Source of the DNA: an uncultured Eubacteriaceae bacterium
GTDB lineage: Bacteria > Bacillota > Clostridia > Peptostreptococcales > Anaerovoracaceae
DNA length: 51,986 bases
NCBI GenBank assembly: GCA_903789635.1
Contig: CAIFEY010000018.1
Span: 1-51,986, forward strand
Reading direction: 5' to 3'
The position numbers and the translations under genes are program-made. The notes beneath the pieces are model-generated. The model saw only the letters and a program-made list of their open reading frames with translations, was not told where the DNA came from and searched no databases. This document shows positions 1 through 24,202 of this stretch, one piece after another (the first letter of the stretch is position 1; every line of letters starts with the position of its first letter).

Positions 1-72
1 GATGAGCGATGGCTCTTTTTTTATTCACTTTTACACCATTATATGGACGTGACCACTCCTTCTGCCTGCATC

Positions 73-560
73 ACCAATTGGATACTGTATACCCTCACCA
101 TCAGCCCCCCGTATTCGAACAATTCAGTATCCCGAAGGGCCAAAGCCTTGCCCGGAGGGCTGCGCGGCGCCGCACATCACCAGCAACTCGGCGCCGCCGC
201 GCCCTCGGCGCGCCTCTCACAGCTTAAAGGGCGCGCCGAACAATCGAGGGAACTGGCCGAGAGCACGCAGGCCAGTTCCTACCTTCGGCCGGCCCGCAAA
301 TCAAGCAAAAAGCGGTCGGCCGACTATCCCGTTTACGAACGAATGTGAGTAAACGGTAACCTTGCCGCGCAACGCGCGGCAACTACGATAGGAGGATACG
401 AAGCAAACCTGCTGAGCATCCTCACACCAACTTTGACACTCCTGGAACGCGGTCGACACCCGCAGACCGCGTTCCAACCATAAATATAATAACAGCCACC
501 GGACAAGCCGCGCCCTCAGTTTTACTATCGCTTATCGCAGCGGCGCCCGGGCGACCGCCT
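73..560 (+). repeat. Multi-hairpin element family 1, copy A
   Basis: This is a non-coding chain of hairpins. Reading 5'-3', the stems are P1 206-214/230-238, P2 249-258/270-279, P3 286-291/317-322 (imperfect), P4 329-336/349-356, P5 364-370/374-380 (3-nt loop), P6 392-397/418-423 and P7 444-454/465-475 (11 bp, perfect). The linkers TACCTTC, GGTAACCTT, AACTACGATAGG and CACCAACTTTGACACTCC recur in the other copies with few changes, while the P4, P6 and P7 stems are different sequences there. The left part (73-320) is nearly identical to 1392-1663. No open frame here has a ribosome site or a recognisable product. I infer a structured RNA or a foldback DNA element; its function is unknown. Confidence 0.75.
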
Positions 561-599
561 ATGTCAACTGCCCAATCCTGCAACACAATTTCAGGCAGT

Positions 600-930
600 C
601 GCACCGGCGCCCCATGCGCGGTCTACGACCAGCGGCTATGGGCATATCGAAATTGCCGCGAGCAGATGTTGAAGGTAGAACTCGCTCAGCGCAGGGCTTC
701 GCGAGTTCTTCAATTTTAGCGAAGGTCACCGTTTGCGTGCGATGCCCGCAAACGGATTGTCTCTATCGGAGAGAACACGTCCTCCTCCGTCGTCCGTGTT
801 CTTCCGATTGTTTCGCCGCGCGCCTTAAAACTGCAGGGGCGCGCGGCGAGCGACCCGCCGATTTTCCGGATGACTTCTCACGAAAAACCCGTCCGTAAAT
901 TCCAGCCTCCGGGCACGGTGGGCCTGGAAG
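600..930 (-). repeat. Multi-hairpin element family 1, copy B (internally deleted, inverted)
   Basis: This copy lies on the minus strand, facing copy A. On plus coordinates its stems are P1 814-824/838-848 (11 bp), P2 772-779/795-802, a P6 equivalent 729-737/747-755 (9 bp) and P7 677-685/701-709 (9 bp). The P7 loop read on the minus strand, GAAGCCCTGCGCTGA, is the same as in copy F, although the stem bases differ completely. P3 to P5 are missing, so this appears to be a shortened copy. No coding potential is seen. Confidence 0.7.
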
Positions 931-1391
931 GCTAAATTGCTTCTGTCAATCGAAAATCAAGCTGATCTTATGAAGAATTTGAAAAACGTTCAGTCAATAA
1001 TTTTCAGTGAGCAAAATATGAAAAATTGTACATCGATCTGTACACAAAAACACGTCCCCAGCGCCTCCCCGCGTACAGCCGCCGTGCCCAGAGCGCGAAT
1101 ATGGCATCACAAGATGACATAATTGTATAATTACCAGACTCGTTTACCACGAAGTCAATAATCCATATGCGATTACACCCGTTTATGACGCCGATACTCA
1201 TTATCATTAATCAGATTGAGCTCAACCGTTCCGAATTCGCTGATCTTTTTAAAATAACATAATTAATTTTTTAACATTCCCGAGATCGGGATTCTTCACA
1301 GTCTGACAAAACGTCATGGGTGGTTTTGACTGCAAATAGGCCATCATCTCCATGTTGCATAGTCGCGCTTTCCTAATTTCTCTACCCGTGC

Positions 1392-1880
1392 CACCAGTTG
1401 GATACTGTATACCCTCGCCATCAGCCTCCGTAATCGAACAATCCAGTATCCCGAAGGGCCAAAGCCTTGTCCGGAGGGCAGCGCGGCGGCACACATCACC
1501 AGCAACTCGGCGCCGCACATCACCAGCAACTCGGCGCCGCCGCGCCCTCGGCGCGCCTCTCACAGCTTAAAGGGCGCGCCGAACAATCAAGGGAACTGGC
1601 CGAGCACGCGCAGGCCAGTTCCTACCTTCGGCCGGCCCGCAAATCAAGCAAAAAGCGGCCGGCCGCTCGATCAAGGAGAATGCGAAACCGGGAGCGCCAG
1701 CGACACGGTTGAGTCATTCTCCCACCTTGCCGCACGAAGTGCGGCAAAGACAATTGGAGGATTCGATGGTGGCGCAGCTGCGACAGCATTGAATCCTCTC
1801 ACCTACTTTGACAATCCCGATTCCGAGCCTCGCCGAAGAATCGGCAACATTTTCCCCCGCCCCGCGCAGCGGCCATAACA
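1392..1880 (+). repeat. Multi-hairpin element family 1, copy C
   Basis: The stems are P1 1549-1557/1573-1581, P2 1592-1601/1613-1622, P3 1629-1637/1657-1665, P4 1675-1682/1715-1722, P5 1729-1735/1739-1745 (3-nt loop), P6 1757-1764/1791-1798 and P7 1817-1823/1838-1844. The linkers CCACCTT, AAAGACAATTGG and TCACCTACTTTGACAATCC match copies A, D and F. The first 270 bases duplicate copy A, and a 23-bp segment beginning CACATCACCAGCAACTCGG is tandemly doubled at about 1493-1538. After P7 the tail reads CAACATTTTCC, which corresponds to TACCATTTTCC in copy F. Confidence 0.75.
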
Positions 1881-1925
1881 CCCCGGCTCCCATCACACGC
1901 ACACAGCCTCGACCACCCTTCCAGC

Positions 1926-2141
1926 CGCGACCAACCGCAATCCCCGCCAACAAAAAAAACAAAAACACGGGCACCATCAGCGAGCGTTTCCGCAGTGACA
2001 GTGACAATTCTGCGAGGAACGAGAGCAGGATTTCGTTGGAGCTGCACTCCTCTTAGTGCAGCTCCCGAAATCCAATGAGTTCCGAGCAAAGAATTGTCTG
2101 TCACGAGGACCTAGCGAGCGGAGGGCGCCCGTGTTTACTCC
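1926..2141. repeat. Foldback repeat 1 (about 180-bp hairpin centred near 2051)
   Basis: Nested inverted repeats surround an 8-nt loop at about 2048-2055. From the inside out the pairs are GGAGCTGCAC/GTGCAGCTCC, GGATTTCG/CGAAATCC, GGAAC/GTTCC, GACAATTC/GAATTGTC, GTGACA/TGTCAC and CACGGGC/GCCCGTG. The flank ATCCCCGCC-A-C followed by an A-rich run is repeated at 2225 and 2466. In the related hairpin at 2673-2782 the innermost stem changes one C-G pair to T-A on both sides, which is a compensatory change. Confidence 0.75.
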
Positions 2142-2224
2142 GCAGTGACATCAATAATTCGCTTCCGAGCTCCGCCGAGGAAGCGTACCTCTTCCCTTAA
2201 ACATCCCCGACCTTCCTTTATCGC

Positions 2225-2400
2225 CTCGACTAATCACGATCCCCGCCTACCAAAAAAACAAAAACACGGCCGCCATCAGCTCACGGCTATCGGACCTTCA
2301 CAGCTCCCAAAACACGGGCACCCCCAGCAATCGAATTACGGACGCATAAGGCTCCCAAAATATGGATGCCCGAAGCAAGCGACTCCGCAGTGACAGTTTC
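2225..2400. repeat. Direct repeat of the left arm of the large foldback
   Basis: This segment is a close direct copy of 2466-2683. Shared tracts include the ACCAATCACGATCCCCGCC-like start (from about 2225), the A-rich tract, CATCAGCTCACGGCTATCGG, CACAGCTCCCAAAACACGGG, the TACGGACGCATAA stretch and CCCGAAGCAAGCGACTCCGC. It has no matching right arm of its own, so it looks like a duplicated or orphaned arm. Frames that cross it have no start context and are not called. Confidence 0.7.
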
Positions 2401-2499
2401 AATTCCGCGAAGAACGAAATCCTACCGCTTCCCTCAAATCGCCGCCCCCTCCTTTACCGCCCCGACCAATCACGATCCCCGCCTACCAAAAAAAACAAA

Positions 2500-2972
2500 A
2501 AAACGCCCGCCATCAGCTCACGGCTCCGCTTTACAAGATATACAAAAACACAGGCGCCATCAGCTCACGGCTATCGGACCTTCACAGCTCCCAAAACACG
2601 GGCACCCCCAGCAATCGAATTACGGACGCATAAAGCTCCCAAAACACGGGTGCCCGAAGCAAGCGACTCCGCAGTGACAGTGACAATTCTACGAGGAACG
2701 AGAGCAGGATTTCGTTGGAGTTGCACTCCTTTTAGTGCAACTCCCGAAATCCAATGAGTTCCGAGCAAAGAATTGTCTGTCACGAGGACTTAGCGCGCTT
2801 CGGGCACCTGTGTTTCCCTGGGAGCTTACATCGTCCGTATTCCATGAGCTGATGGTGCCCGTGTTTCCCTGGGAGCTGCGTTGTCCGTATTCCGTGAGCT
2901 TATGGTACCTGTGTTTCCGTGTATACACTTGCCAAGCGCGGAGACCTGGTGAGCTGATGAACCCGTGTTTTC
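2500..2972. repeat. Large imperfect inverted repeat (about 470-bp foldback)
   Basis: The two arms pair over most of their length around a centre near 2729. Matching blocks are GTTGCAC/GTGCAAC at the apex, AAACACGGGTGCCCGAAGC (2641-2659) with GCTTCGGGCACC and TGTGTTT (2796-2814), GCTCCC 2635-2640 with GGGAGC 2819-2824, TACGGACG 2621-2628 with CGTCCGTA 2831-2838, ACACGGGCACC 2596-2606 with GGTGCCCGTGT 2853-2863, AGCTCACGG near 2562 with CCGTGAGCT near 2892, CTCCGC 2524-2529 with GCGGAG 2938-2943, and CATCAGCTCAC 2511-2521 with GTGAGCTGATG 2949-2959. Internal loops and indels separate the blocks. No transposase is encoded. Confidence 0.8.
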
Positions 2973-2996
2973 AAAGTCCCATTATCGTTGTATAAT
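2968..2996 (+). promoter_or_regulatory. Probable promoter of the CorA-like gene
   Basis: A perfect TATAAT lies at 2991-2996, with a weak -35 candidate TTTTCA at 2968-2973 (17-bp spacing). It sits about 47 bases upstream of the start codon. The -35 candidate falls in the last bases of the large foldback, so the foldback could influence transcription. Confidence 0.5.
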
Positions 2997-3043
2997 GTCT
3001 ATTAGTTCGGAATTTCACCCCCCGCAGAAGGAGAGGCAGCACG

Positions 3044-3823
3044 ATGATTAAGGTCTTTAATGCAAAAGAGAAAAATGAATTTGCAGATCTGGCGGACACG
3101 CCGGAGGTCAGGGAAGTCCGAGACAGCCGTGACTATGCGGTCCGCGTCGGGAAGAAGGCGTACCTGATCACCTTCCACTATATCAACCGGCGGCGCGTCA
3201 CGCTTTATGCGGACATGGACCAGTGCTGCGTCATGACGGATTCGCTGAACCTGAGGCAGGCGGCGGCGAACATCAGCGGCAGGAACGGGATCCATGAGGC
3301 GAATTTGTTTTTGCAGAGGATCTCCAAGAACGACATGTACGACCTGCAGAACCTTGAGCGCGACGTGCAGTCGCTGGAGGACCGGCTGTTCGCGGAGAAG
3401 ACGCCTAGCCGCGGCGGCATCGACGAGATCCGAAAGCTGCGCCGTGAGATCCTGCGCCGCAAGCGCTACTACGAGCTGATGGAGTTCATCACCGACGAGC
3501 TCGCCGAGATGGACAACGACTTCAACTTCGTCAGCAAGAAGTTCGACCGCCTCTACAAGGTCATCCTCCGCACCCAGGAGTTCGCCGAGGAAGTGCGCGA
3601 GGCCTACCAGTCCCAGGTCGACATCCAGCAGAACAACACCATGAAATTCCTGACCATCATCACCACCATCTTCATGCCTCTGCAGCTGATCACCGGCTGG
3701 TACGGCATGAACCTGAAGATGCCCGAGGTCCACTGGCAGTACGGCTATTTGTTCGTCATCGGCCTCAGCATCACGATCAGCTCCGTGATGATCTGGATCT
3801 GCAAGAAAATGAAGTGGTTTTAA
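3044..3823 (+). CDS. corA: CorA-family magnesium/divalent cation transporter
   Basis: The product is 259 aa, somewhat short for CorA (usually about 310-370). The N-terminal cytoplasmic domain is compact. A long helical segment follows (about residues 90-195). Two C-terminal membrane helices come last: about 202-220 (FLTIITTIFMPLQLITGWY) and about 234-252. The family signature GMN ends the first helix (YGMNL, about 221-223), and a basic tail (KKMKW) follows the second. CorA proteins form pentameric channels that admit Mg2+ and sometimes Co2+ or Ni2+. The start ATG is preceded by an AAGGAGAGG ribosome site. The gene stands alone, between the foldback repeat and a terminator. The ion specificity cannot be read from the sequence. 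Confidence 0.85.
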   Translation: MIKVFNAKEKNEFADLADTPEVREVRDSRDYAVRVGKKAYLITFHYINRRRVTLYADMDQCCVMTDSLNLRQAAANISGRNGIHEANLFLQRISKNDMYDLQNLERDVQSLEDRLFAEKTPSRGGIDEIRKLRREILRRKRYYELMEFITDELAEMDNDFNFVSKKFDRLYKVILRTQEFAEEVREAYQSQVDIQQNNTMKFLTIITTIFMPLQLITGWYGMNLKMPEVHWQYGYLFVIGLSITISSVMIWICKKMKWF

Positions 3824-3874
3824 TAAGTCATTAATTCCTTACGTCGCTTTCGACAAAATTTAAACTTCACGCAT

Positions 3875-3911
3875 AAAAAATCTCCGCTGGTATGCCGCGG
3901 AGGTTTTTTTG
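3875..3911 (+). terminator. Rho-independent terminator after corA
   Basis: CTCCGC and GCGGAG form a stem with a 9-nt loop, followed by a run of seven T. A-residues on the other side could let it work weakly on the minus strand for the phosphatase gene. Confidence 0.8.
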
Positions 3912-3988
3912 TCATATTGTCTTTGCGTCTTTGCCTAATTGTCTTTGCCGAATTGATCATTACTGTTTATTGCTGCATTGCTGTTCTT

Positions 3989-4597
3989 CTACTTCTGCTC
4001 TTTCGGCTGTAGTTTAATCGGCTCGCCGTAGCGCCCGCCTACGATCGGACAGTGGAAAATCGCGCAGTTGTCGATCGGCAGGTGCCAAATCTCATTGCCC
4101 GGCTTCGCCTCGCCTTTCATCCAGCCGAACATGGCCCGGATCGCGACGCCGTGGCTGACGACCAGGATGGTTTCCTGGTCCTTCGACTTTGTCAGCAGAT
4201 CGGTCAAAAAACTCCCTGCCCTCGCAGTCACCTCGGACAGCGGCTCGATCCCTGCCGGCGGATCCACGTGCACCGGGTCCATCAGGAACTTCTTCATGCC
4301 CGGGCCCATCTCCTCGTAGGTCTTTCCGTCGAGCTCGCCGTAGTCGATCTCGATGACGCGGTCGTCGGTCAGGAACTCGGTGCGCGGAACGCCCGTCGCC
4401 AGCTCCGCCGTCTCGCGCGTGCGGTCGAGCGAGCTCGTGATAATCCGGTCAAACGTCAGCCCGTGTGCCCTGAGGACCTGCGCTGCGGCCTTTGCCTGCG
4501 CCCGGCCCGTGTCATTCAGCGGACAGTCGATGTGCCCCTGCATCTTTCCCGCAACGTTCATGTCCGACTGCCCGTGCCGCATGATGTACAGTTCCAT
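3989..4597 (-). CDS. Histidine phosphatase family protein (phosphoglycerate mutase-like)
   Basis: The product is 202 aa. The N-terminal MRHGQSDMN motif (residues 6-14) is the RHG signature, whose His accepts the phosphoryl group. A second catalytic His lies in VVSHGVAIR (about 146-154), and an Arg follows RIITSSLDRTRETAE (about 50-64) as in the family. Members dephosphorylate sugar phosphates, cobalamin precursors or nucleotides, or act as mutases. Nothing in the neighbourhood fixes the substrate. The ribosome site GGGGGAAG precedes the ATG. It is a single gene convergent with corA. 2,3-bisphosphoglycerate-independent or CobC-like roles are both possible. Confidence 0.85.
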   Translation of the reverse strand: MELYIMRHGQSDMNVAGKMQGHIDCPLNDTGRAQAKAAAQVLRAHGLTFDRIITSSLDRTRETAELATGVPRTEFLTDDRVIEIDYGELDGKTYEEMGPGMKKFLMDPVHVDPPAGIEPLSEVTARAGSFLTDLLTKSKDQETILVVSHGVAIRAMFGWMKGEAKPGNEIWHLPIDNCAIFHCPIVGGRYGEPIKLQPKEQK

Positions 4598-4852
4598 AAT
4601 TCTTCCCCCTGCTCTTCCTTACTAAAATCTCAATTTAAATCTCAGATTCCAACGCCCCGCCGCCGACGCGGCTGCCTGGGCTCCATAATAACGTGTAATT
4701 GAACACATAACTTCTGTCAAAATCACTGTGGTTAAAGTATACCATCATCCGCGCCTGCTTTGCACCCTTTCCTGTGTATCGTTTTCCTGTGCATAAAAAA
4801 ATACGTTGAATTCTCTGTCAAACAGGTCTATAATTGAATCAGTTAAAGATCT

Positions 4853-4928
4853 GGGGATATAGCTCAGCTGGGAGAGCGACGGACTCGCAGCTCGTAGGTC
4901 AGGGGTTCGATCCCCCTTATCTCCACCA
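4853..4928 (+). tRNA. tRNA-Ala (anticodon CGC)
   Basis: A 76-nt cloverleaf can be drawn. The acceptor stem is 4853-4859 with 4918-4924, with the G3-U70 wobble that marks alanine tRNAs. The D stem is GCTC/GAGC, the anticodon CGC is at 4886-4888 after U33, and the T arm is AGGGG-TTCGATC-CCCCT. The CCA end is encoded (4926-4928). The anticodon stem has one A-C mismatch next to the loop (4883/4891). It reads GCG, in keeping with the high G+C genome. Confidence 0.93.
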
Positions 4929-4934
4929 GATACA

Positions 4935-4966
4935 AGCGGACTGAAACATTTCGGTCCGTTTTTCTT
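4935..4966 (+). terminator. Terminator after the tRNA gene
   Basis: CGGAC (4937-4941) pairs with GTCCG (4954-4958), followed by TTTTTCTTTTTC. It lies seven bases past the CCA end. Confidence 0.8.
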
Positions 4967-5001
4967 TTTCATTTTACTATACACTGTGATTTTTTTGATT
5001 C

Positions 5002-5045
5002 AGAGAACGGGTCGACGCCTGGCGCGATCGCCCGTTCTCTTTTTT
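5002..5045 (+). terminator. Strong hairpin with T run upstream of the TetR gene
   Basis: AGAGAACGGG (5002-5011) pairs perfectly with CCCGTTCTCT (5031-5040) and is followed by TTTTT. It probably insulates the TetR operon from read-through out of the tRNA region. Confidence 0.7.
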
Positions 5046-5058
5046 CGGTCATTTTTAT

Positions 5059-5099
5059 TGACTTTATTCATTGACTTTAGTCATTTAAATGCATATACT
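5059..5099 (+). promoter_or_regulatory. Promoter with overlapping TetR-type operator
   Basis: A good sigma-A promoter is present: TTGACT at 5071-5076, 17 bp, and TATACT at 5094-5099. The palindrome TGACTTTAGTCA (5072-5083) covers the -35 box, and a related half-site TTGACTTTATTCA lies just upstream (5059-5070). The placement fits repression of its own operon by the downstream TetR protein. The promoter is seen directly; the operator assignment is inferred. Confidence 0.65.
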
Positions 5100-5119
5100 T
5101 AATTCCAGGAGGTGCAGAG

Positions 5120-5740
5120 ATGGGAAAAAGACAGGAGGCCGCGATGGCGACCCGCCAGAAGATCGTCGAGGCCATGCGGGCGCTGCTCCGTGAGAAGCCG
5201 GCGGACCGCATCAACATTGAGGAAATCACCGAGCGCGCGGGCGTCGCCAAAGGCTCGTTCTACACGCATTTCAAGCGCAAGGAGGACGTCATTTCCGTGG
5301 TCGCGATGGACGCCTATAACGCGGCAAAGGAAACCGCGGCAGGCTATTCCGGCTCCATTGCGGAGAAAATCAGCAGTTACCTGCGCGATTCCGCGAAGAT
5401 CATCACCGGAAACACCCTGCAGATCGCACAGAACTGGATGAAGAGCGTCGCAGCGCCCCTGTCCGGCGAGGATGGCGGCATCGAGAAGTATCGTTTCGAT
5501 TACGGGAATATTTTGTCCCTGCTGCAGCAGGCAGCGGAAAACGGCGAGCTCCGCCCTGACACCCCCGCCAAGACGCTCACCCAGAGCATCATGAACAGCT
5601 ATTACGGCGCGGTCATTTCCTGGTGCATCACGCGCGGGGAGGCCGATCTCACCGCCGGCATCGAGGATTACTGCACCCGCGAGCTTCCCCTGCTCATCGA
5701 ACACGCAGGACGCCCTCAGAACACCGAAGGAGGAGAATAA
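5120..5740 (+). CDS. TetR/AcrR family transcriptional regulator
   Basis: The product is 206 aa. The N-terminal helix-turn-helix is typical of TetR (about residues 10-60: ...INIEEITERAGVAKGSFYTHFKRKEDV), with the recognition-helix pattern GVAKGSFYTHF. The rest is an all-helical ligand and dimerisation domain with no recognisable specificity. The start follows GGAGGTGCAGAG. The stop codon overlaps the start of the downstream dehydrogenase by one base (TAATG), so the two are translationally coupled. A palindrome lies over the -35 box of the promoter. It most likely represses its own operon and responds to a small molecule handled by the partner enzyme; the inducer is unknown. Confidence 0.9.
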   Translation: MGKRQEAAMATRQKIVEAMRALLREKPADRINIEEITERAGVAKGSFYTHFKRKEDVISVVAMDAYNAAKETAAGYSGSIAEKISSYLRDSAKIITGNTLQIAQNWMKSVAAPLSGEDGGIEKYRFDYGNILSLLQQAAENGELRPDTPAKTLTQSIMNSYYGAVISWCITRGEADLTAGIEDYCTRELPLLIEHAGRPQNTEGGE

Positions 5741-6396
5741 TGTCAAAGAAAACCATTATCGTTATCGGCGCCGGCAAAGGCAACGGCAACGCCATCGCAC
5801 GGGAGTTCGCCTCCCACGATTTCCGCGTCGTCCTGATGTCCCGCGACAAAGACCACCTGGACGCATACAAGAAGGAATTTGATGCAGAAGGCATCGAAAC
5901 CTACGTCCACACCGCCGACGCCGCCAAACCGGAAACCATCGTCTCCGCGATCGAGGACACCGTCAAAGGACTCGGCACCCCGGACGTCCTCGTCTACAAC
6001 GTCGGCATCACCACCCCGGACGGCGATCGCCGGATCGACAGCAAGCTCCTGCTCGAGCGCTACCAGATCGACTGCGCCTCCGGCTGGGACGCTGCCATGA
6101 CTGTCGCCACCGACGAATTCGCAGCTAAACACGGCGCGATCCTGTTTACCGGCGGCGGATTCGCAAAAACCTTCCAGCCGATCCCGACCCTGAAGCCCCT
6201 CTGCATCGACAAGGCCGCCCAAAACGCCATGAACATCGTCCTCCACGACGCGTTCGCCCCGCGCGGCATCTTTGTCGGCAGCATCCTGGTCAGCGGCGTC
6301 GTCCAGCCCGGCGACCCGAAGTACGACCCCGCCCTCGTCGCCAGGCAGTTCTGGAACATGTACACCGCCCGCACGGAGTACCAGATCGCGTACTAG
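5740..6396 (+). CDS. Atypical short-chain dehydrogenase/reductase-like protein
   Basis: The product is 218 aa with a Rossmann fold. The nucleotide-binding glycine motif is GAGKGNGNAIA near residue 10, and the NVG motif (YNVGITT, about 87-93) stands where SDRs have NAG. The usual catalytic YxxxK is altered: the equivalent stretch reads LCIDK, with Leu in place of Tyr and the Lys kept, and the preceding Ser position lies in FTGGGF. The start ATG at 5740 overlaps the TetR stop and has an AGGAGGAG ribosome site; frames opening further upstream lack this. It may bind NAD(P) without classical SDR catalysis, or may use a different acid. It is co-expressed with, and presumably controlled by, the TetR regulator. 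Confidence 0.8.
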   Translation: MSKKTIIVIGAGKGNGNAIAREFASHDFRVVLMSRDKDHLDAYKKEFDAEGIETYVHTADAAKPETIVSAIEDTVKGLGTPDVLVYNVGITTPDGDRRIDSKLLLERYQIDCASGWDAAMTVATDEFAAKHGAILFTGGGFAKTFQPIPTLKPLCIDKAAQNAMNIVLHDAFAPRGIFVGSILVSGVVQPGDPKYDPALVARQFWNMYTARTEYQIAY

Positions 6397-6426
6397 GGGA
6401 TTGTCCGATCGTTTTCAGCGCATAGA

Positions 6427-6456
6427 AAAGAGGCTGCTTTGTCACAGCCTCTTTTT
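6427..6456. terminator. Bidirectional terminator between the SDR and dipeptidase genes
   Basis: AGAGGCTG pairs with CAGCCTCT across an 8-nt loop. A-rich sequence precedes the hairpin and TTTTT follows it, so it can serve both converging genes. Confidence 0.85.
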
Positions 6457-6491
6457 CATCCTATTATAATCACCGATTGTCTGCGTGATCA

Positions 6492-7979
6492 CTACGCGTC
6501 CGATCTCGCATACTTGTTCTTCATGCCCATGCTCGCCGCGAACAGGACCTCGTCCATGAGGCCGTCGGTTTTGTCTTCCGTGAAGTCGGAGATTTCCTGG
6601 TTTGCGGACTCGAGGAAGCGGTGGAGTGCTGCGCCTTCCGGCTTCTCCTGGAGGTACTTCTCGTCGGTGGCGTGGAGCCATGCGTGCGACTTGTAGGCGA
6701 TCGTGTTGCGGTACTGCTCGATCGTGTTGACGCAGTCCTGGTAGTGGGCGTCTGCGAGCGCCGCGATCAGGCGGTTGGTCCAGTAGAAGTTTCTGGTGGA
6801 GACCTTCTCCGTGACCTCGCTGAAGTATGCCGGCGTCGTCTCGACGTTCGTGTAGAACGGCACGAAAGCGTTGAATGCGCAGGATCCGAACGTTACCCAC
6901 TGGATGCACTGGATTTCCTTTGGCATATATGGGCGGATCTGCGTCAGCGAAAGGACAGAGTTTCGGTTAATTCCGATCGGGCGGAATTTTCTTCTCCACT
7001 CCTCCGGGCCGTAGCCGCCGTAAGGGTCGTACTGCGTGTTCTGGTAGTAGCCGGACATGGTGTACTTGATGTCCTCGATGTTGATCTTGTGCTCAGGCTG
7101 CAGGCACCACGGCAGGTCGTCGGACATCGGCGTGAACTCCGCGTCCTCGCCGTCCCAGATGAACGTGTTCGGGTTCAGGTAGCGCTCGATGAACCATGCC
7201 CTCGGCGTGTTGTACGTGTGGTCCGAGTCGTCGCGGCTTCCGAATGCTGCGCGGCTGTCGAAGTCCGTGCACTCGCGCAGGTTTTCGTAGTCCTTCTCGT
7301 CGTCGAGTGTGCGGTCGAGGTGGTATTTTTCGACAAAGTCGATCATATCTGCAGAACACATGTTTTCTTTCTGTTCACCGTATGCGTCGACAAAGTCGAA
7401 GGAGTCAATTCCCATCTGGTTCGGCATGACGACGTAGCAGTCGTCCGGAACGCGCTTGGCGATCCAGTGATGGCCGCCGATCGTCTCCAGCCACCAAATC
7501 TCATTGACGTCCTGGAATCCGATCGCGTTGAACTCGTACGTTCCGTACTCCTCCAGGATCTTTCCGAGGCGCTCCACGCCTTCCCTCGCCGTATGAATGT
7601 ACGGCAGAACAAGCGTCGGCATGTCCTCTTCCCCAATGCCGTCAACCGCAATTGGGTCCGCTCCCTGGACCGTCGGATTTGTCGTTATCGTCTCCGTGGC
7701 CGTCATCGAGACGTTCGCCGCGTTGATTCCGCCCTGGCCCCAGATTCCTCCGGCAACCTGCACCGCGTCCGGCGTCTCCGTGTACGGCATCGGATCATCC
7801 GGCAGATCGATCTCAAAAGCCGAATTCACCGACTTATAGTGCCTTGGCTGGTCCTCCGGCATGACGACCACGAACTTCTTGGCCGTAAAGCAGTCCGACC
7901 CCGAATCGTCGTCCCTCGCCATCAGCGTGGATCCATCGTATGATGCGTTTTTGCCAACCAAAATTGTTGTGCAGCCCAT
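6492..7979 (-). CDS. pepD: C69-family dipeptidase
   Basis: The product is 495 aa and belongs to the peptidase family U34/C69, whose members are N-terminal nucleophile hydrolases that cleave dipeptides. The start MGCTTILVGKNAS places the nucleophile Cys at residue 3 and is followed by the family stretch DGSTLMARDDDSG. I chose the ATG at 7979 because GAGGAGGT lies seven bases upstream; an in-frame ATG at 8006 has no ribosome site. Later family segments include EIWWLETIGGHHWIAKRVPD and NVSMTATET. In homologues the residues before the Cys are removed during maturation. No signal peptide is visible, so a cytoplasmic location is likely. It is a single-gene unit with a shared terminator downstream. 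Confidence 0.9.
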   Translation of the reverse strand: MGCTTILVGKNASYDGSTLMARDDDSGSDCFTAKKFVVVMPEDQPRHYKSVNSAFEIDLPDDPMPYTETPDAVQVAGGIWGQGGINAANVSMTATETITTNPTVQGADPIAVDGIGEEDMPTLVLPYIHTAREGVERLGKILEEYGTYEFNAIGFQDVNEIWWLETIGGHHWIAKRVPDDCYVVMPNQMGIDSFDFVDAYGEQKENMCSADMIDFVEKYHLDRTLDDEKDYENLRECTDFDSRAAFGSRDDSDHTYNTPRAWFIERYLNPNTFIWDGEDAEFTPMSDDLPWCLQPEHKINIEDIKYTMSGYYQNTQYDPYGGYGPEEWRRKFRPIGINRNSVLSLTQIRPYMPKEIQCIQWVTFGSCAFNAFVPFYTNVETTPAYFSEVTEKVSTRNFYWTNRLIAALADAHYQDCVNTIEQYRNTIAYKSHAWLHATDEKYLQEKPEGAALHRFLESANQEISDFTEDKTDGLMDEVLFAASMGMKNKYARSDA

Positions 7980-8224
7980 TTCACTTACCTCCTCGTAACG
8001 AGTCATTATTTACCGTTTACAGCGAACCCCGCGCTCACCCGCTTGACCGCAGGCATCCCGCGGCTCGCCTGACTGCGAACCTATTGTTCGCTCGCTGATT
8101 CAAGGATACACCATTCTGAAAATTATCTCAACAGCTATGTGGCGTTGCACTTTGTACACATGCCCGCGCCCGCGCATCTCCGCTATTCCATTCGCGCACA
8201 TCTTTTCAAGACCCCGTCCGCAGT

Positions 8225-8682
8225 CCACAGGCGAGGGCACATGCATTTCCCGAACACGTGCTTCGCAAGAATTCGGGAAACGCACATGGTCTCCCCCTTC
8301 AGTTGCGGGCGCCAGCACGATGCGTACGTACAATTCCCAGGGATTGCGCGGGCGGCCGCGTGAGGAAAGGCCGCGGATATTGGCCAAGGCAGCGCATGTG
8401 CCCTCACCCATCAGATGCGGACGGGGGTGATAATGTGCGCGAACGGATTATTGCGCGCGGGCGGGCAATGGTAAAAGTGTAATGCCACTGCGCGGGATCG
8501 CGCGGGCGGCCGCGTGAGAGAAACCCGCGGATACTGGTCAAGGCAGCGCATGTGCCCTCACCCATCAAATGCGGGCGGGATTGATATTGTGCGCGCCTGG
8601 CTTAGGCTGCGCTGGCGCGGGCAATGGTAATAAGGCAGCGCCGCAGCGCAGGATTGCGTGGGCGGCCGCGTGAGGGAAGGGA
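8225..8682 (-). repeat. Tandem G+C-rich repeat, about 154-bp period
   Basis: The segment beginning GCGCGGGCGGCCGCGTGAG occurs at 8346, 8500 and (partial) 8656. The first two units share long tracts such as AAGGCAGCGCATGTGCCCTC and ACCCATCA-ATGCGG. Read on the minus strand each unit contains TTACCATTGCCCGC, a variant of the TACCATTTTCC linker that follows P7 in family 1, so this looks like an amplified tail of copy D. A further hairpin pairs TTTCCCGAA with TTCGGGAAA (about 8244-8281). 7980-8224 holds no recognisable feature beyond short G+C-rich palindromes. Confidence 0.7.
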
Positions 8683-8910
8683 AATGGTAGATCCCGCTCG
8701 GCGCAAGGCCTCCCGAGATCTGCGATTGTCGAAGAAGGTGAGAGAATCCTCCGCTGATCGCGTCGGATTCTCCTATTATATTTGCCGCCCTGCGGGCGGT
8801 AGGGTCGCCGATTCATCACGTTCGTTCTGAATCGGGATCTGGCGCCGTGCCGGAAGAAGGACAAGCACGGCGAAGGTTACCGTTTACTCGCTTCGCTCGT
8901 AAACGGGATC
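8683..8910 (-). repeat. Multi-hairpin element family 1, copy D
   Basis: Stems on plus coordinates, in minus-strand order, are 8880-8887/8899-8906, 8844-8850/8865-8871, 8808-8814/8829-8835, P5 8785-8790/8794-8799 (3-nt loop), P6 8742-8749/8765-8772 and P7 8689-8693/8717-8721. Minus-strand linkers GGTAACCTTC, TCACCTTCTTCGACAATCGC and TACCATTTCCC match copies A, C and F. The P7 loop GGGAGGCCTTGCGCCGAGCG differs from copy F's at a few bases. Confidence 0.75.
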
Positions 8911-8942
8911 TAGCGGCCGCCTGTAATATTGGGCCTCGCGGC

Positions 8943-9340
8943 CGATTGAAGAAACCCGGCTTCGCTGACGCTGACGCCGGGTTTCTTCAATTATTGCGCG
9001 GGCCACCGTCCGACCCGCCCTAACCTGATCATGCGGGTCGGACAGTCGCCCGCGCAGGGGCGGTCCGGCGATTTTTATGCCAATGATCGCCCGACCGCGT
9101 GTGGAATCGGTTGAAATCGTGCTGCGCAGTATGCTCGCACGATTTCTGTGATTTTTTCGCCGCGCGCCTTACACGCTGGAATGGCGCGCGGCGAGGGCCC
9201 GCCAGCCCATTTGAAAGCTGGGGTTGGGGCCGCGGGCAGGTCGCGGCAGATGAAAATTTAATATGCCGCGACCTAAGGTGGTAACTCGACCTCAGGAATT
9301 CGACCGAGTTCCCTCGGTGGTTTCCCCCGCACACTAAAGA
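8943..9340 (-). repeat. Hairpin chain continuing copy D (element E)
   Basis: Successive hairpins include ATTGAAGAAACCCGGC with its perfect 16-bp complement (about 8945-8990), GTCCGACCCGC/GCGGGTCGGAC (about 9008-9043), CGGTC-GGCGAT/ATCGCC-GACCG (9061-9097), P2 9113-9122/9137-9146, P1 9158-9168/9183-9193 (11 bp) and AGGTCGCGGCA/TGCCGCGACCT (about 9238-9273). P1 and P2 have the same order and the same loop features as copies A, B, C and G: a TAAG near the P1 3' arm, and GAGC...GCA in the P2 loop. No frame here has coding signals. Confidence 0.7.
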
Positions 9341-9399
9341 AAACTGGAAAAAGGCGCACGGGGGGAGTTTTAGTATACTGTATGTACGACAAGTTCCAG

Positions 9400-10316
9400 T
9401 TATTACCATTCCTGCCGGCTATATTTTAATTATTACTGTGAACCGAAGAGTCTTCAATTTTTTCCGGCCATAGTTCATATTTTTCATGGTACCGAAATTC
9501 ACAGGACGGCCCACCCGCTCGAGGGCAGCGGGATTTCGGCTATTATTCAATTGTAGAAGATAGCCGAAATTCTAATAGACACAGCGATCATATTGTCAGC
9601 TTTACTGTTCAGATCGACCAGTTGTATCCCGGATTTATCCGGGATTACTGCGATCAGCGCCCGCTCGTGCGCACTTTTCTCGCCTTCGAGCGCGGGGTGA
9701 TTCGGCTTGAGATCATATTTTACAAATAGCCGGCGGTGTATACACGAGTTTCGGCTGACCGAGAAATTTGATTTATAGCCGGCGGCGGGGCGGCCCATGC
9801 CGGACGACTGGACAACAGAAATGAGAAGGAATGCACGCGCACCCTGGTCATCCCGACGAGATGTCGACCACGGTGATATCTGAATATCAGATTTGCATTC
9901 GCAGCATTGATAACACTGGATGACACTGCGGCATTCCGGTATGCCGGAGCAGCGGCGTACCAGTTGCCACCTCCCTCTCTTGCTGAGTTATCACTGGCAT
10001 ACAGAATGCAATTCTACAATGGTCATTAATCACCCAACAAAATTTTGTATACTTCCGGAAAATCGTAAAAGCCCATCTGCAATAAATTCCGCCGCCGACG
10101 CTTAGTATTTTTGAAATATCGCAGATTTAAAGAAGAGTCATCGCCGGCGGCGAGCGGCCCCGGTACGTCCGTGACGGCTATATTGCTATCATCATCCGTC
10201 ATGTAATCATGCAGATTACATATATGTTCGGTAACAAGAGCGAATCCATCTATTTCCCGAAGTTTTTATTACTCACCCAGTCCATGTTATCAGTATTCAC
10301 ATGCCATGTATACACT
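9400..10316. repeat. Gene-free stretch with further hairpins and short repeats
   Basis: No gene is supported. Perfect or near-perfect hairpins include CCCGCT/AGCGGG (about 9514-9531), ATTTCGGCTA/TAGCCGAAAT (9533-9570), ATCCCGGA/TCCGGGAT with a 4-nt loop (9626-9645) and CCCGCTCG/CGAGCG-GGG (about 9660-9696). TAGCCGGCGG occurs twice (9728 and 9775). GCxGATTTAAAGAAG near 10120 and CTTCCGGAAAATCG near 10050 have related copies at 10400-10470. The G+C level is lower than in copies A to F. Confidence 0.55.
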
Positions 10317-11110
10317 TGGATCCTGTATACCCCGATTTTCCCTCGAAAACAGCCGGAATCAAACGAACCAAATCGATTACAACGCCCTTCAAATCCGCCA
10401 TTTTACGATTTTCCGGAACCAAATTCGTCAACTTCCGGGAATATGGATTATTGCGGATTTAAAGAAGTATTTTGTATACATCCGTCGTCTCCTTCCGCAC
10501 ATTATAGTGTTCCAGTATGCGGGGCCGCCCGCGCCGCCCCTTACGCCCATCCAGGCGGCGCTACGGCCCGGCAGGCGACAGCACCTTGGAGCCTGCGGGC
10601 CGGATCAAAGGAATCCGCGAGCCCCGCCAAGCGGATTCCTACCTTCGCCATGCGTTTCCAGCTTTATCAGCACGGCGCCGCGGTCTGTCAGCCATTCAAC
10701 TCATAAAAGCTGACGGACCGCCACCGCGCCCGGGCGACGTTCCGAACCGCAGTACAGAATTAAGATCGGTTCGGACGGTCGCCCGGCGCTGCAATCAGGA
10801 GAACACGACCAAGCGGGAGAGTTCTCCCACCTTCGGCCGGCCGCCGCCCCTTCAGAAAAGCAGCCGGCCGCTCGATCAAGGAGAATACGAAACCCGCCGC
10901 GCAAGCGGCGAGGTTGAGTATTCTCTCACCTTGCCGCCCGCAGGGCGGCAAAGACAATCCCGCTTCAGAGCAGCGCCGATGAAGCGGCGACCTTCTTTGA
11001 CAATCAGTGAAGCCGGGAAGCCCTGCGCTGAGCGGCTTCTACCATTTTCCTCTCCGCGCAGCGGACCACCCCAGTATCGCCGCCCCTCACATCACGCACG
11101 CGGCGCCGCG
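10317..11110 (+). repeat. Multi-hairpin element family 1, copy F
   Basis: This is the most complete copy after C. The stems are P1 10730-10738/10778-10786 (plus inner CCGAACCG/CGGTTCGG), P2 10798-10804/10821-10827, P3 10835-10841/10863-10869, P4 10881-10888/10918-10925, P5 10933-10939/10943-10949, P6 10960-10966/10981-10987 and P7 11009-11014/11034-11039. The linkers are CCACCTTC, GCTCGATCAAGG, TCACCTT, AAAGACAATCC, CGACCTTCTTTGACAATCA and TACCATTTTCC. It begins with GGATCCTGTATACC (10318-10331), related to GGATACTGTATACC in copies A and C. An extra hairpin GGAATCCGC/GCGGATTCC lies near 10609-10638. 11111-11242 is G+C-rich with no recognisable gene. Confidence 0.75.
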
Positions 11111-11242
11111 GTCCGGCGCTCCTCAGCTTCCAATCGCCCGACCGCTCCCAGTCGCGTGCCCGCCCCGGTATCCCGGAGGGCCTCTCCTTTGCCCGGCGGG
11201 CCGCCGCCCCCTCACCCCCATTGAAGAATCCCCCGCACGCCA

Positions 11243-11286
11243 AAAACCGCCCGCTTACGCAGACATCTGTGCAAGCGGGCGGTTTT
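11243..11286. terminator. Terminator after ppdK (end of the housekeeping operon)
   Basis: AAAACCGCCCGCTT (11243-11256) pairs perfectly over 14 bp with AAGCGGGCGGTTTT (11273-11286). On the minus strand, the direction of ppdK, it ends in TTTTT. It can also act on the plus strand for element F. Confidence 0.9.
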
Positions 11287-11303
11287 ATATTCTGGCGCTC
11301 GGG

Positions 11304-15646: not shown

Positions 15647-16447
15647 TTACTCGGTACGGGTCTCCGTGTCGTCTGCCGGCGTCTCAGCAGGTGCCTCTTC
15701 AGCGGCCTCTTCCGTCTGCGCAGCAGGTGCTTCGTCTGCAGGTTCCTCGGACTTTGTCTCCTCGGACGCTGTCTCTGCGGTCTCTGCCTCCGGCGCAGCC
15801 TCAGCCTCTTCAGACTCAGCTGCCTCGGCGGCGTCAGCAGTCTCCATGCTGTCGTCGCGGAACCACTCCTCGTCGAACTCCTCTTCCTCGATGAATGGCT
15901 CCTCGACGTCGTCTCCTGCGCCCTTGACCTTATCCATCATCTCGGAAACGCTGCTGGACATGGTCTCCATGACTTCCGGCGCCCTCTCCTTGACCGTCTG
16001 TGCGGCCCTGGTTCCGGCCTCTACGGCGCTCTCCGCGAACTCCTCGGCCTTGTCGCTCAGGCTGATGATCTCCCCGTCGTCCTTGACCAGGTCGATCGTA
16101 CACTTGAATCCGAATGCGGCCAGAACGCCGAGCAGAACGCCCCACGGCGCGATGACGACGCCCAGGATTCCTGCGTTCAGCGGCAGGTTCAGGACGACGT
16201 TTCCGTTGTTTCTGACGACGATCTTAGAGATGTTTCCGCGCTGCACGATCTCCTTGACCTTGTCCATCAAAGCGGTGCCCTTGGCCCCGATCTTTCTGGT
16301 GGAGGTCATGTCATCGATGTTCTCCTCGATGGCTACGATCGCGTCGACGACGTTTCCGTCCGCTTTCTCCAGCGCTTCCTTAGCTTCCTTATACGTTACG
16401 CCTGTTCTGTCCTTGACAAGCTCAATCTTTTCCAGTGTAATCCCCAT
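15647..16447 (-). CDS. DUF4342-like protein with UBA-like N-terminus and acidic tail
   Basis: The product is 266 aa. The N-terminus (about 1-45, LEKIELVKDRTGVTYKEAKEAL...) resembles a UBA/TS-N helical domain. A DUF4342-type domain follows (about 50-125) and includes the hydrophobic, possibly membrane-associated stretch LPLNAGILGVVIAPWGVLLG. Residues about 130-180 are helical, and the last 85 residues are almost entirely Glu, Ala, Asp and Ser. A ribosome site AAAGG precedes the ATG. The start lies inside the end of recO (26-base overlap), so the two are coupled. The function is unknown. Its place between recO and glyQS is where B. subtilis has no such gene. Confidence 0.7.
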   Translation of the reverse strand: MGITLEKIELVKDRTGVTYKEAKEALEKADGNVVDAIVAIEENIDDMTSTRKIGAKGTALMDKVKEIVQRGNISKIVVRNNGNVVLNLPLNAGILGVVIAPWGVLLGVLAAFGFKCTIDLVKDDGEIISLSDKAEEFAESAVEAGTRAAQTVKERAPEVMETMSSSVSEMMDKVKGAGDDVEEPFIEEEEFDEEWFRDDSMETADAAEAAESEEAEAAPEAETAETASEETKSEEPADEAPAAQTEEAAEEAPAETPADDTETRTE

Positions 16448-23935: not shown

Positions 23936-23973
23936 CACTCGTCATCGCGGCACTTATTTTTTGCGCCGCGCAC

Positions 23974-24131
23974 TCGGCGCGCTCCCTTACATTTGAGGGC
24001 GCGCCGAAACAATGGAGGGAACTGGCCGAGCGTTCGCAGGCCAGTTCCTTCCACCCTTCGCGCCGGCCTGCGGTCGCCGCAATCAAACAGGAGCATCCGC
24101 GGTCGCAAACACGATTCTGCAGATGCTCCTG
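23974..24131 (+). repeat. Multi-hairpin element family 1, copy G (partial)
   Basis: The stems are P1 23974-23982/23999-24007, P2 24018-24027/24039-24048 (same stem as A and C but with a changed loop) and P4 24088-24097/24122-24131 (CAGGAGCATC and complement, different from all other copies). The linkers GAAACAATGG and ATCAAACAGG correspond to GAACAATCGAGG and GATCAAGG elsewhere. It ends just downstream of mtaB. Confidence 0.65.
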
Positions 24132-24202
24132 ATTATCGTTATCTTCGGCGCGCCTCATTTATCTGAAGCGGCGCGCCTCCTGCTTCTAAAGGTCCGGCGC
24201 CG

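Follow-up and report, generated by a model that had tools for sequence, protein, structure and literature searches.

What kind of element consists of rows of hairpins whose stems differ from one copy to the next and are paired within each? The question is raised by contig CAIFEY010000018.1 (assembly GCA_903789635.1) of an uncultured Eubacteriaceae bacterium, a stretch of 51,986 nucleotides that is referred to here as the window and constitutes contig C18 of a 2.64-Mb genome (77 contigs, 97.86% complete). An initial annotation made from its letters had described a recurring multi-hairpin element, with copies A to G in which stems P1 to P7 follow one another in a shared order between conserved linkers. 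These hairpin rows are arms of a high-copy, gene-free composite repeat, which comprises an AT-rich centre and two hairpin arms and is documented by its copies, their common order, the covariation of the stems, the outward polarity of the arms and a centre devoid of a conserved open reading frame (ORF).

An AT-rich centre with two hairpin arms

To detect hairpins, perfect inverted repeats were located mechanically and joined into non-overlapping chains, which were compared with 20 single-base shuffles per bin. Chain scores of 66, 43, 43, 49 and 56 were obtained in the 1-kb bins starting at positions 1, 1001, 8001, 9001 and 10001, for which shuffle means ranged between 6.7 and 10.7 (standard deviation (sd) 3.7–5.7). 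The remaining bins were mostly close to their shuffles, with those from 2001, 23001, 27001, 30001 and 44001 scoring 23–26 versus 6–10. Scores so far above the shuffles confirm the recurring element, and the stems and linkers named in the initial annotation are present in the sequence. Each window array contains 5 to 14 hairpins with stems of at least 7 bp. In the genome, the linker CACCTTCTTTGACAATC occurs at 14 places with at most two mismatches (reversed control, none), and the same sort of hairpin chain is present there. The window and the element-bearing stretches (180,853 bases) contain 45 clusters of at least four hairpins, with 4 to 23 hairpins per cluster, located mostly between longer ORFs. 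Under a strict rule (at least five hairpins, short gaps), 32 clusters were found in 340,026 bases of element loci and none in 140,000 bases of arbitrarily placed stretches of the same genome; a loose rule (at least four hairpins, wider gaps) gave two clusters each in the arbitrary stretches L122 and L123, with at most seven hairpins, those of L123 sitting on a 480-bp repeat family described below.

The copies seen in the initial annotation are thus real, although the conserved centre, the opposite orientations and the role of the arrays as arms of bigger, genome-wide repeats had been missed. Array B (586–849, minus strand by its linkers), a conserved AT-rich centre (about 860–1330) and array C (1400–1844, plus strand, nine hairpins) are one element, with B as its left and C as its right arm. 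The centre holds the core AACATAATTAATTTTTTAACATT (1256–1278, plus strand), which occurs at 29 places of the genome with at most three mismatches, against none for the reversed control. Over these 29 loci the centre, about 500 nt long, averages 42% GC (the value also found in this element) where the window has 58.7%. Most copies can be aligned with one another along several hundred bases, a few being much more diverged.

Clusters of at least three hairpins stand to the left of the centre at 22 of the 29 loci, to the right at 14 and on both sides at 11, several loci being cut by contig ends; three loci (L070, L084 and L090) have no cluster and one (L079) has a single cluster within the centre only. 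The linker motifs speak for the minus strand in 15 of the 22 left arms, for the plus strand in one (L069) and for neither in six; in the right arms they speak for the plus strand in 12 of 14 and for neither in two. The arms therefore point outward from the centre. The arms are co-linear across loci, and the longest repeat stretches reach 3,558 bases. Three core copies (L107 6036, L107 12328 and L108 8706) have little surrounding similarity and few or no nearby hairpins, and the core alone may have a role of its own. Near position 12300 of L025, a contig end lies inside an element copy and carries long G and C runs, which are likely an assembly or sequencing artefact.

The right arm is followed by a tail (1962–2971 in element 1), which is made up of palindromic modules bounded by inverted copies of AACACGGGC(A/G)CC. 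Its modules at 1962–2136, 2248–2417, 2532–2701 and 2641–2815 are palindromes of about 170 nt (GACAATTC..GGATTTCG..GGAGCTGCACT..) with inverted AACACGGGC ends. They resemble miniature inverted-repeat transposable elements (MITEs), are present in many copies in the fetched stretches, and several of them end at an ORF edge; among the 14 tail ends examined, six coincide with such an edge. No target-site duplications were established. The genes flanking the copies were in tandem in 12 of 19 cases, divergent in five and convergent in two, as called by a crude ORF picker on which no claim rests.

A protein-coding centre was rejected, since no ORF is conserved across the 29 loci. From the conserved ATG the frame stays open for 3–52 codons, except for 100 codons in L093 and 152 from another start in L090; a different start was caught in a few loci, and the test covered the centre, with arms and tail outside it. 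The genome gave no match to the Y1 transposase (PF01797) or to reverse transcriptase (PF00078), for which control matches were obtained in five and three of 14 known genomes, respectively.

Covariation and the linker-hairpin unit

Within the arms, linkers of the type (C/T)ACCTT(C) alternate with linkers of the type (AAA/TTT)GACAATC or GATCAAG. The shared order of hairpins claimed for all copies is clear for A, C and F only, while in G the series breaks off after its first two hairpins and different ones follow. The claim that stems are unrelated between copies was likewise too strong, as stem GGAACTGGCC is common to A, C and G and GGAGAATG/GGAGAATAC to C and F; still, the 343 hairpins of the 39 arrays that could be oriented (out of 45) comprise 239 different stems. 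Hairpin types recur in different slots, and what hairpins share are the linkers and loop ends more than the stems. In 51 of the 343 oriented hairpins, a C-G pair closes a loop that has GA at both ends, an arrangement typical of tandem sheared G.A pairs. Among three-base loops, 19 of 27 are C(GNA)G, most from one homologous slot.

The P5 slot has the form CCGC-N-C NNN G-N'-GCGG, and all four pairs are seen at N (C-G 16, A-T 9, G-C 5 and T-A 1, in the 31 of 32 copies with letters there). Several stems without relation to one another occupy the P6 slot, and each of them pairs within its own copy. In an alignment of 21 copies over P5 and P6 (A1), 94.6% of 336 cells were paired, with 52 both-sided changes and no one-sided change, and the covariation score was 0.390 versus 0.103 (sd 0.017) for shuffled alignments and at most 0.192 for slid partners. 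These copies had been selected by a P5 pattern demanding a complementary variable pair; the 12 double changes in P5 are therefore weakened, and the 40 in P6 are the fair part. P4 was excluded from the count because the copies differ in the hairpin occupying it. An unconstrained RNAalifold prediction on A1 recovered P5 and most of P6.

A covariance model of the unit (R1) retrieved 32 copies at E ≤ 1e-8 from 492,012 bases (the window and 30 fetched stretches), among them the units in arrays A (357–442, plus, 82.4 bits), C (1722–1817, plus, 91.6 bits), D (8723–8807, minus, 90.5 bits) and F (10926–11006, plus, 71.8 bits). In this alignment, which is fitted to the model, 97.2% of 505 cells were paired, both-sided changes numbered 83 (64 in P6) versus three one-sided ones, and the score was 0.453 versus 0.113 (sd 0.014) for shuffles and at most 0.098 for slid partners. 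In a model-free test, homologous hairpins were matched by loop and linkers with the stems left free, and pairs whose arms differed by more than the stem length were dropped. The interior pairs of 94 unique comparisons comprised 572 unchanged pairs, 29 Watson-Crick double changes, 22 G.T, 7 A.C and 28 other mismatches. By hand arithmetic, independence at a per-base change rate of about 0.09 predicts about two double changes versus the 29 counted; as common descent links the copies, these counts cannot be treated as independent, and a tree-based null was not part of the analysis. The covariation of the stems, for which the initial annotation had argued, thus exceeds both shuffled and slid controls, as is generally expected of a structured RNA, among copies within one genome.

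The folding strand and competing explanations

The two strands of the arms are not equivalent. In arrays oriented by their linkers, loop ends were of the type GA..GA in 49 cases, TC..TC in one and other in 214. Because linker orientation uses G-poor motifs, the count was repeated with arrays oriented by the side of the centre alone. Among 245 loops of at least 8 nt, 42 were GA..GA (30 left, 12 right), none was TC..TC and 203 were other. Linkers contained 10.7% G versus 30.7% C in the centre-side orientation and 11.4% versus 32.8% in the linker orientation, and in the model-free test G.T exceeded A.C by 22 to 7 (p = 0.004 against one half). These counts support the outward strand as the folding strand. 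The asymmetry of GA..GA and G.T also speaks against cruciforms or copy-correction, because both would be strand-symmetric; it fits RNA and single-stranded DNA alike, and the outward polarity agrees with divergent transcription as well as with lagging-strand exposure. The suggestion of the initial annotation, a folded RNA or a single-stranded DNA recognised by shape, is therefore upheld by covariation and strand-specific folding.

The explanation we favour, with a confidence somewhat short of even, is a species-specific, non-autonomous repeat whose arms would be used as folded single strands, most likely as two divergent RNAs made outward from the centre. Two points lead us to prefer RNA over DNA: the repeat is laid out like a divergent transcription unit, and the genome gave no match to a Y1 transposase. 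Each linker-hairpin unit would be a repeated docking site for one partner, the arm thereby forming a multivalent docking string, which would account for stem sequences that vary freely alongside conserved pairing, G.A step and linkers. Multi-hairpin sponge RNAs are analogues for this docking principle, with no membership in that group implied. The copies would spread as whole non-autonomous units, as suggested by the order shared among many diverged copies.

Several observations weigh against this explanation. RNA folding energies go against the outward strand, which is the more stable of the two in only 9 of 27 arrays (p = 0.0007), and no strand preference emerges with DNA energies (outward in 15 of 27, p = 0.24). 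The C(GNA)G preference among the triloops (19 of 27) is a feature of very stable DNA hairpins. Promoter- and terminator-like sites were not above shuffles in two of three elements, and the third had three promoter-like sites versus 1.4 expected; the best such site, TTGACA-17-GATAAT, lies on the minus strand in the centre of L025. Further pair types in A1 were not above shuffles (13 vs 14.0), and cross-species conservation is lacking, as no relatives were found in the searches described below.

Some of these features would suit arms that fold as single-stranded DNA; replication or transfer starting at the centre would expose them, and a transposase, a relaxase or a priming protein would recognise their shape. 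For forks that move away from the centre, the outward strand would then serve as lagging-strand template; the triloops (many of them homologous copies of one slot) and the tolerance of G.T would suit DNA too, and the many copies and the tail ends at ORF edges (6 of 14) are signs of mobility. The genome, however, yielded no PF01797 match, other relaxase and transposase families not having been searched, and a layout with two arms yields no single lagging-strand orientation; we consider such a DNA element rather unlikely. The pairing could also have arisen without selection on a folded strand, as a by-product of template switching (quasipalindrome correction) or of the swapping of hairpin cassettes. 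One-sided changes to standard pairs are indeed few (0 of 336 and 3 of 505 cells) and hairpin types do recur in different slots. Correction, however, is strand-symmetric, yet GA..GA and TC..TC stand at 42:0 and G.T and A.C at 22:7. One-sided changes are also common in the looser, model-free comparison (57 non-Watson-Crick interior cells vs 29 double changes), and the conserved linkers and order are left unexplained, which makes a by-product very improbable.

Finally, the arrays might be a graveyard without function, in which ordinary MITE- or BIME-like (bacterial interspersed mosaic element) palindromic repeats have piled up between genes. Tail modules that resemble MITEs with inverted ends, the presence of a further repeat family (about 480 bp) and the location of the arrays mostly between longer ORFs agree with such an origin. 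Random nesting, on the other hand, would not give co-linear and covarying arms or a centre that is conserved among otherwise diverged copies, and we hold a graveyard to be improbable.

Further copies, relatives and known systems

The window contains further copies. Array A (80–476, plus strand, eight hairpins with stems of at least 7 bp) starts beside a 53-nt sequence at 2–54 that recurs without mismatch, in reverse complement, where contig C59 ends within the centre of another copy. At window 2–54 and at the end of L026, on two contigs, different flanks adjoin this sequence, which is probably an insertion-sequence end that broke the assembly inside element copies. Array D/E (8742 to about 9400, minus strand) and array F (10531–11039, plus strand) are probably the left and right arms of a second element with another type of centre. 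Between them, a second type of AT-rich sequence (9996–10525, 43% GC) is 65% identical to L018 9081–9611, which is likewise flanked by one minus and one plus array, and would act as the centre of this element. Positions 9398–9790 hold a module shared at 70–80% identity with L020, L021, L022, L023, L026 and L117, which stands among the left arrays in the loci checked (L022 and L023). Array G (23946–24177) is partial, with the first hairpins of the series only, and was assigned to the plus strand by its likeness to A and C, the linkers casting no vote. Elsewhere in the genome, a further dispersed family, the third, consists of repeats of about 480 bp (68–82% identity between copies) with an GCCATTTTCCCA hairpin near one end; copies were found in L017 (13296–13781), L113, L115, L123 (two), L023, L022 and L112.

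The initial annotation had found no known RNA class, and Rfam agrees, with no array match at gathering scores. At that threshold the whole window gave tRNA-Ala only; at E ≤ 1 nothing was matched in 1–3000, and in 8000–11300 only Thr_leader and microRNA models were, below gathering scores. Homologues in other Clostridia, which it had predicted, were not encountered in searches with linkers, centre and R1 or among congeners. The linker pattern matched 48 of 81 genomes (own genome included), almost all with two mismatches, and the reversed control matched as well; 19 loci of relatives were scored and six inspected, including the top scorer L043, and none had these linkers and hairpins. The exact centre core had no match in genome_contigs or viral_contigs, collections that possibly do not include this genome or ones very close to it, the exact P5 pattern had none in viral contigs, and blastn gave no phage or plasmid match for the element. 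Among 296 genomes of the family, the centre DNA matched its own genome and 13 others at E 0.002–0.009 over 20–50 nt; the latter matches, whose loci were not read, are taken as chance, leaving the own genome only.

R1 at E ≤ 0.01 matched the own genome and 14 others among 349 genomes of the family. Eleven loci were fetched, some of them inspected at the middle of the locus and not at the match; nine lie inside ORFs of at least 80 aa (not L208 and L210), and none is such an array. Within a 237-aa ORF at one of the fetched loci, L217 of genome G003, there are five loose hairpins. At E ≤ 1e-4, 297 genomes of the order gave the own genome only, and 398 of the phylum gave the own genome and G563 (9.2e-5, 24 bits), a match inside a 616-aa ORF without an array. 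The three draws of genomes overlap, and Infernal's stricter filters were used throughout.

In 704,575 bases from seven genomes of the same genus, the strict rule yielded four clusters of at least five hairpins, each rejected as a relative. L231 accounts for two of them (tandem units of about 91 nt whose stems are identical), and L232 (a tandem repeat of about 188 nt) and L051 (a nested palindrome) have one each. The loose rule yielded 13 clusters in the first 400,000 bases, of which two are runs of N and nine were inspected, none being comparable. In L231 (10335–10960, genome G006) the tandem units carry repeated GCGGAAC hairpins and GATTTTTC/GAAAAATC arms, the identical stems being unlike the window arrays. 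The L232 repeat (15997–16431, also G006) lies between two long ORFs and has several hairpins, among them CATCGGC..GCCGATG and GCGGATGC gga GCATCCGC. In L051 (4189–4414, genome G008), six hairpins with long perfect stems are found partly within a larger inverted repeat AATTAGTGTCTGC..GCAGACACTAATT. As far as these searches reach, the repeat family appears to be an orphan of one species, and no description of such an element was found among literature listings and the opening parts of abstracts.

Among already-known kinds, the repeat falls under dispersed palindromic non-coding repeats. Repetitive extragenic palindromic (REP) elements act as folded single-stranded DNA and have stems conserved in sequence. 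Accounts of REP/BIME and REPIN describe high-copy, palindromic, non-autonomous and composite repeats (PMC3116915, PMC8266576, PMC2817692), and the window repeat shares these four properties. It differs in stems that vary (239 different ones among 343) with no conserved palindrome sequence common to the copies, in its 500-nt centre and its long rows in which the hairpins differ but the linkers stay constant, and in a genome in which the RAYT (TnpA-REP, Y1) transposase was not found. The repeat thus lacks the defining features of REP/BIME that were tested. Stem-loop repeat families of bacterial genomes are described as repeated intergenic folding sequences (PMC2267715) and seemingly consist of single stem-loops, whereas the window repeat is a composite with two arrays.

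The large ornate bacterial RNAs ROOL, GOLLD and OLE are likewise long, non-coding, multi-helix structures (PMC12286853). In contrast to them, the window arrays have no Rfam match, are linear beads on a string and are present dozens of times per genome, as divergent pairs. In integron attC sites, too, stem sequence is free and structure is kept; the window linkers are by eye unlike inverse core sites and no gene cassettes lie between the hairpins, integrase and core sites not having been searched. Retroelements, group II introns and retrons are set apart by the reverse transcriptase, of which the genome has no PF00078 match. Telomere palindromes of linear Streptomyces replicons are hairpin rows with GNA-type loops, as are the window arrays, but many arrays of the window type are internal to contigs, between ORFs and dispersed, with some at contig ends.

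We tentatively propose that the repeat may represent a new class, a gene-free bidirectional unit with dozens of copies per genome that would give rise to two divergent giant beads-on-a-string RNAs (or two folded DNA strands), in which pairing, the tandem G.A step and short linkers would be selected while stems drift, and which would have arisen in, or been acquired by, a single species. The dozens of diverged copies amount to an internal alignment, so that shape versus sequence as what is kept becomes directly testable. Orphan families of such repeats escape cross-species RNA searches. Bacterial genomes are commonly thought lean; that of the species described here contains dozens of non-coding units on the kilobase scale, which show strong structural covariation within this single genome and for which no relatives were found.

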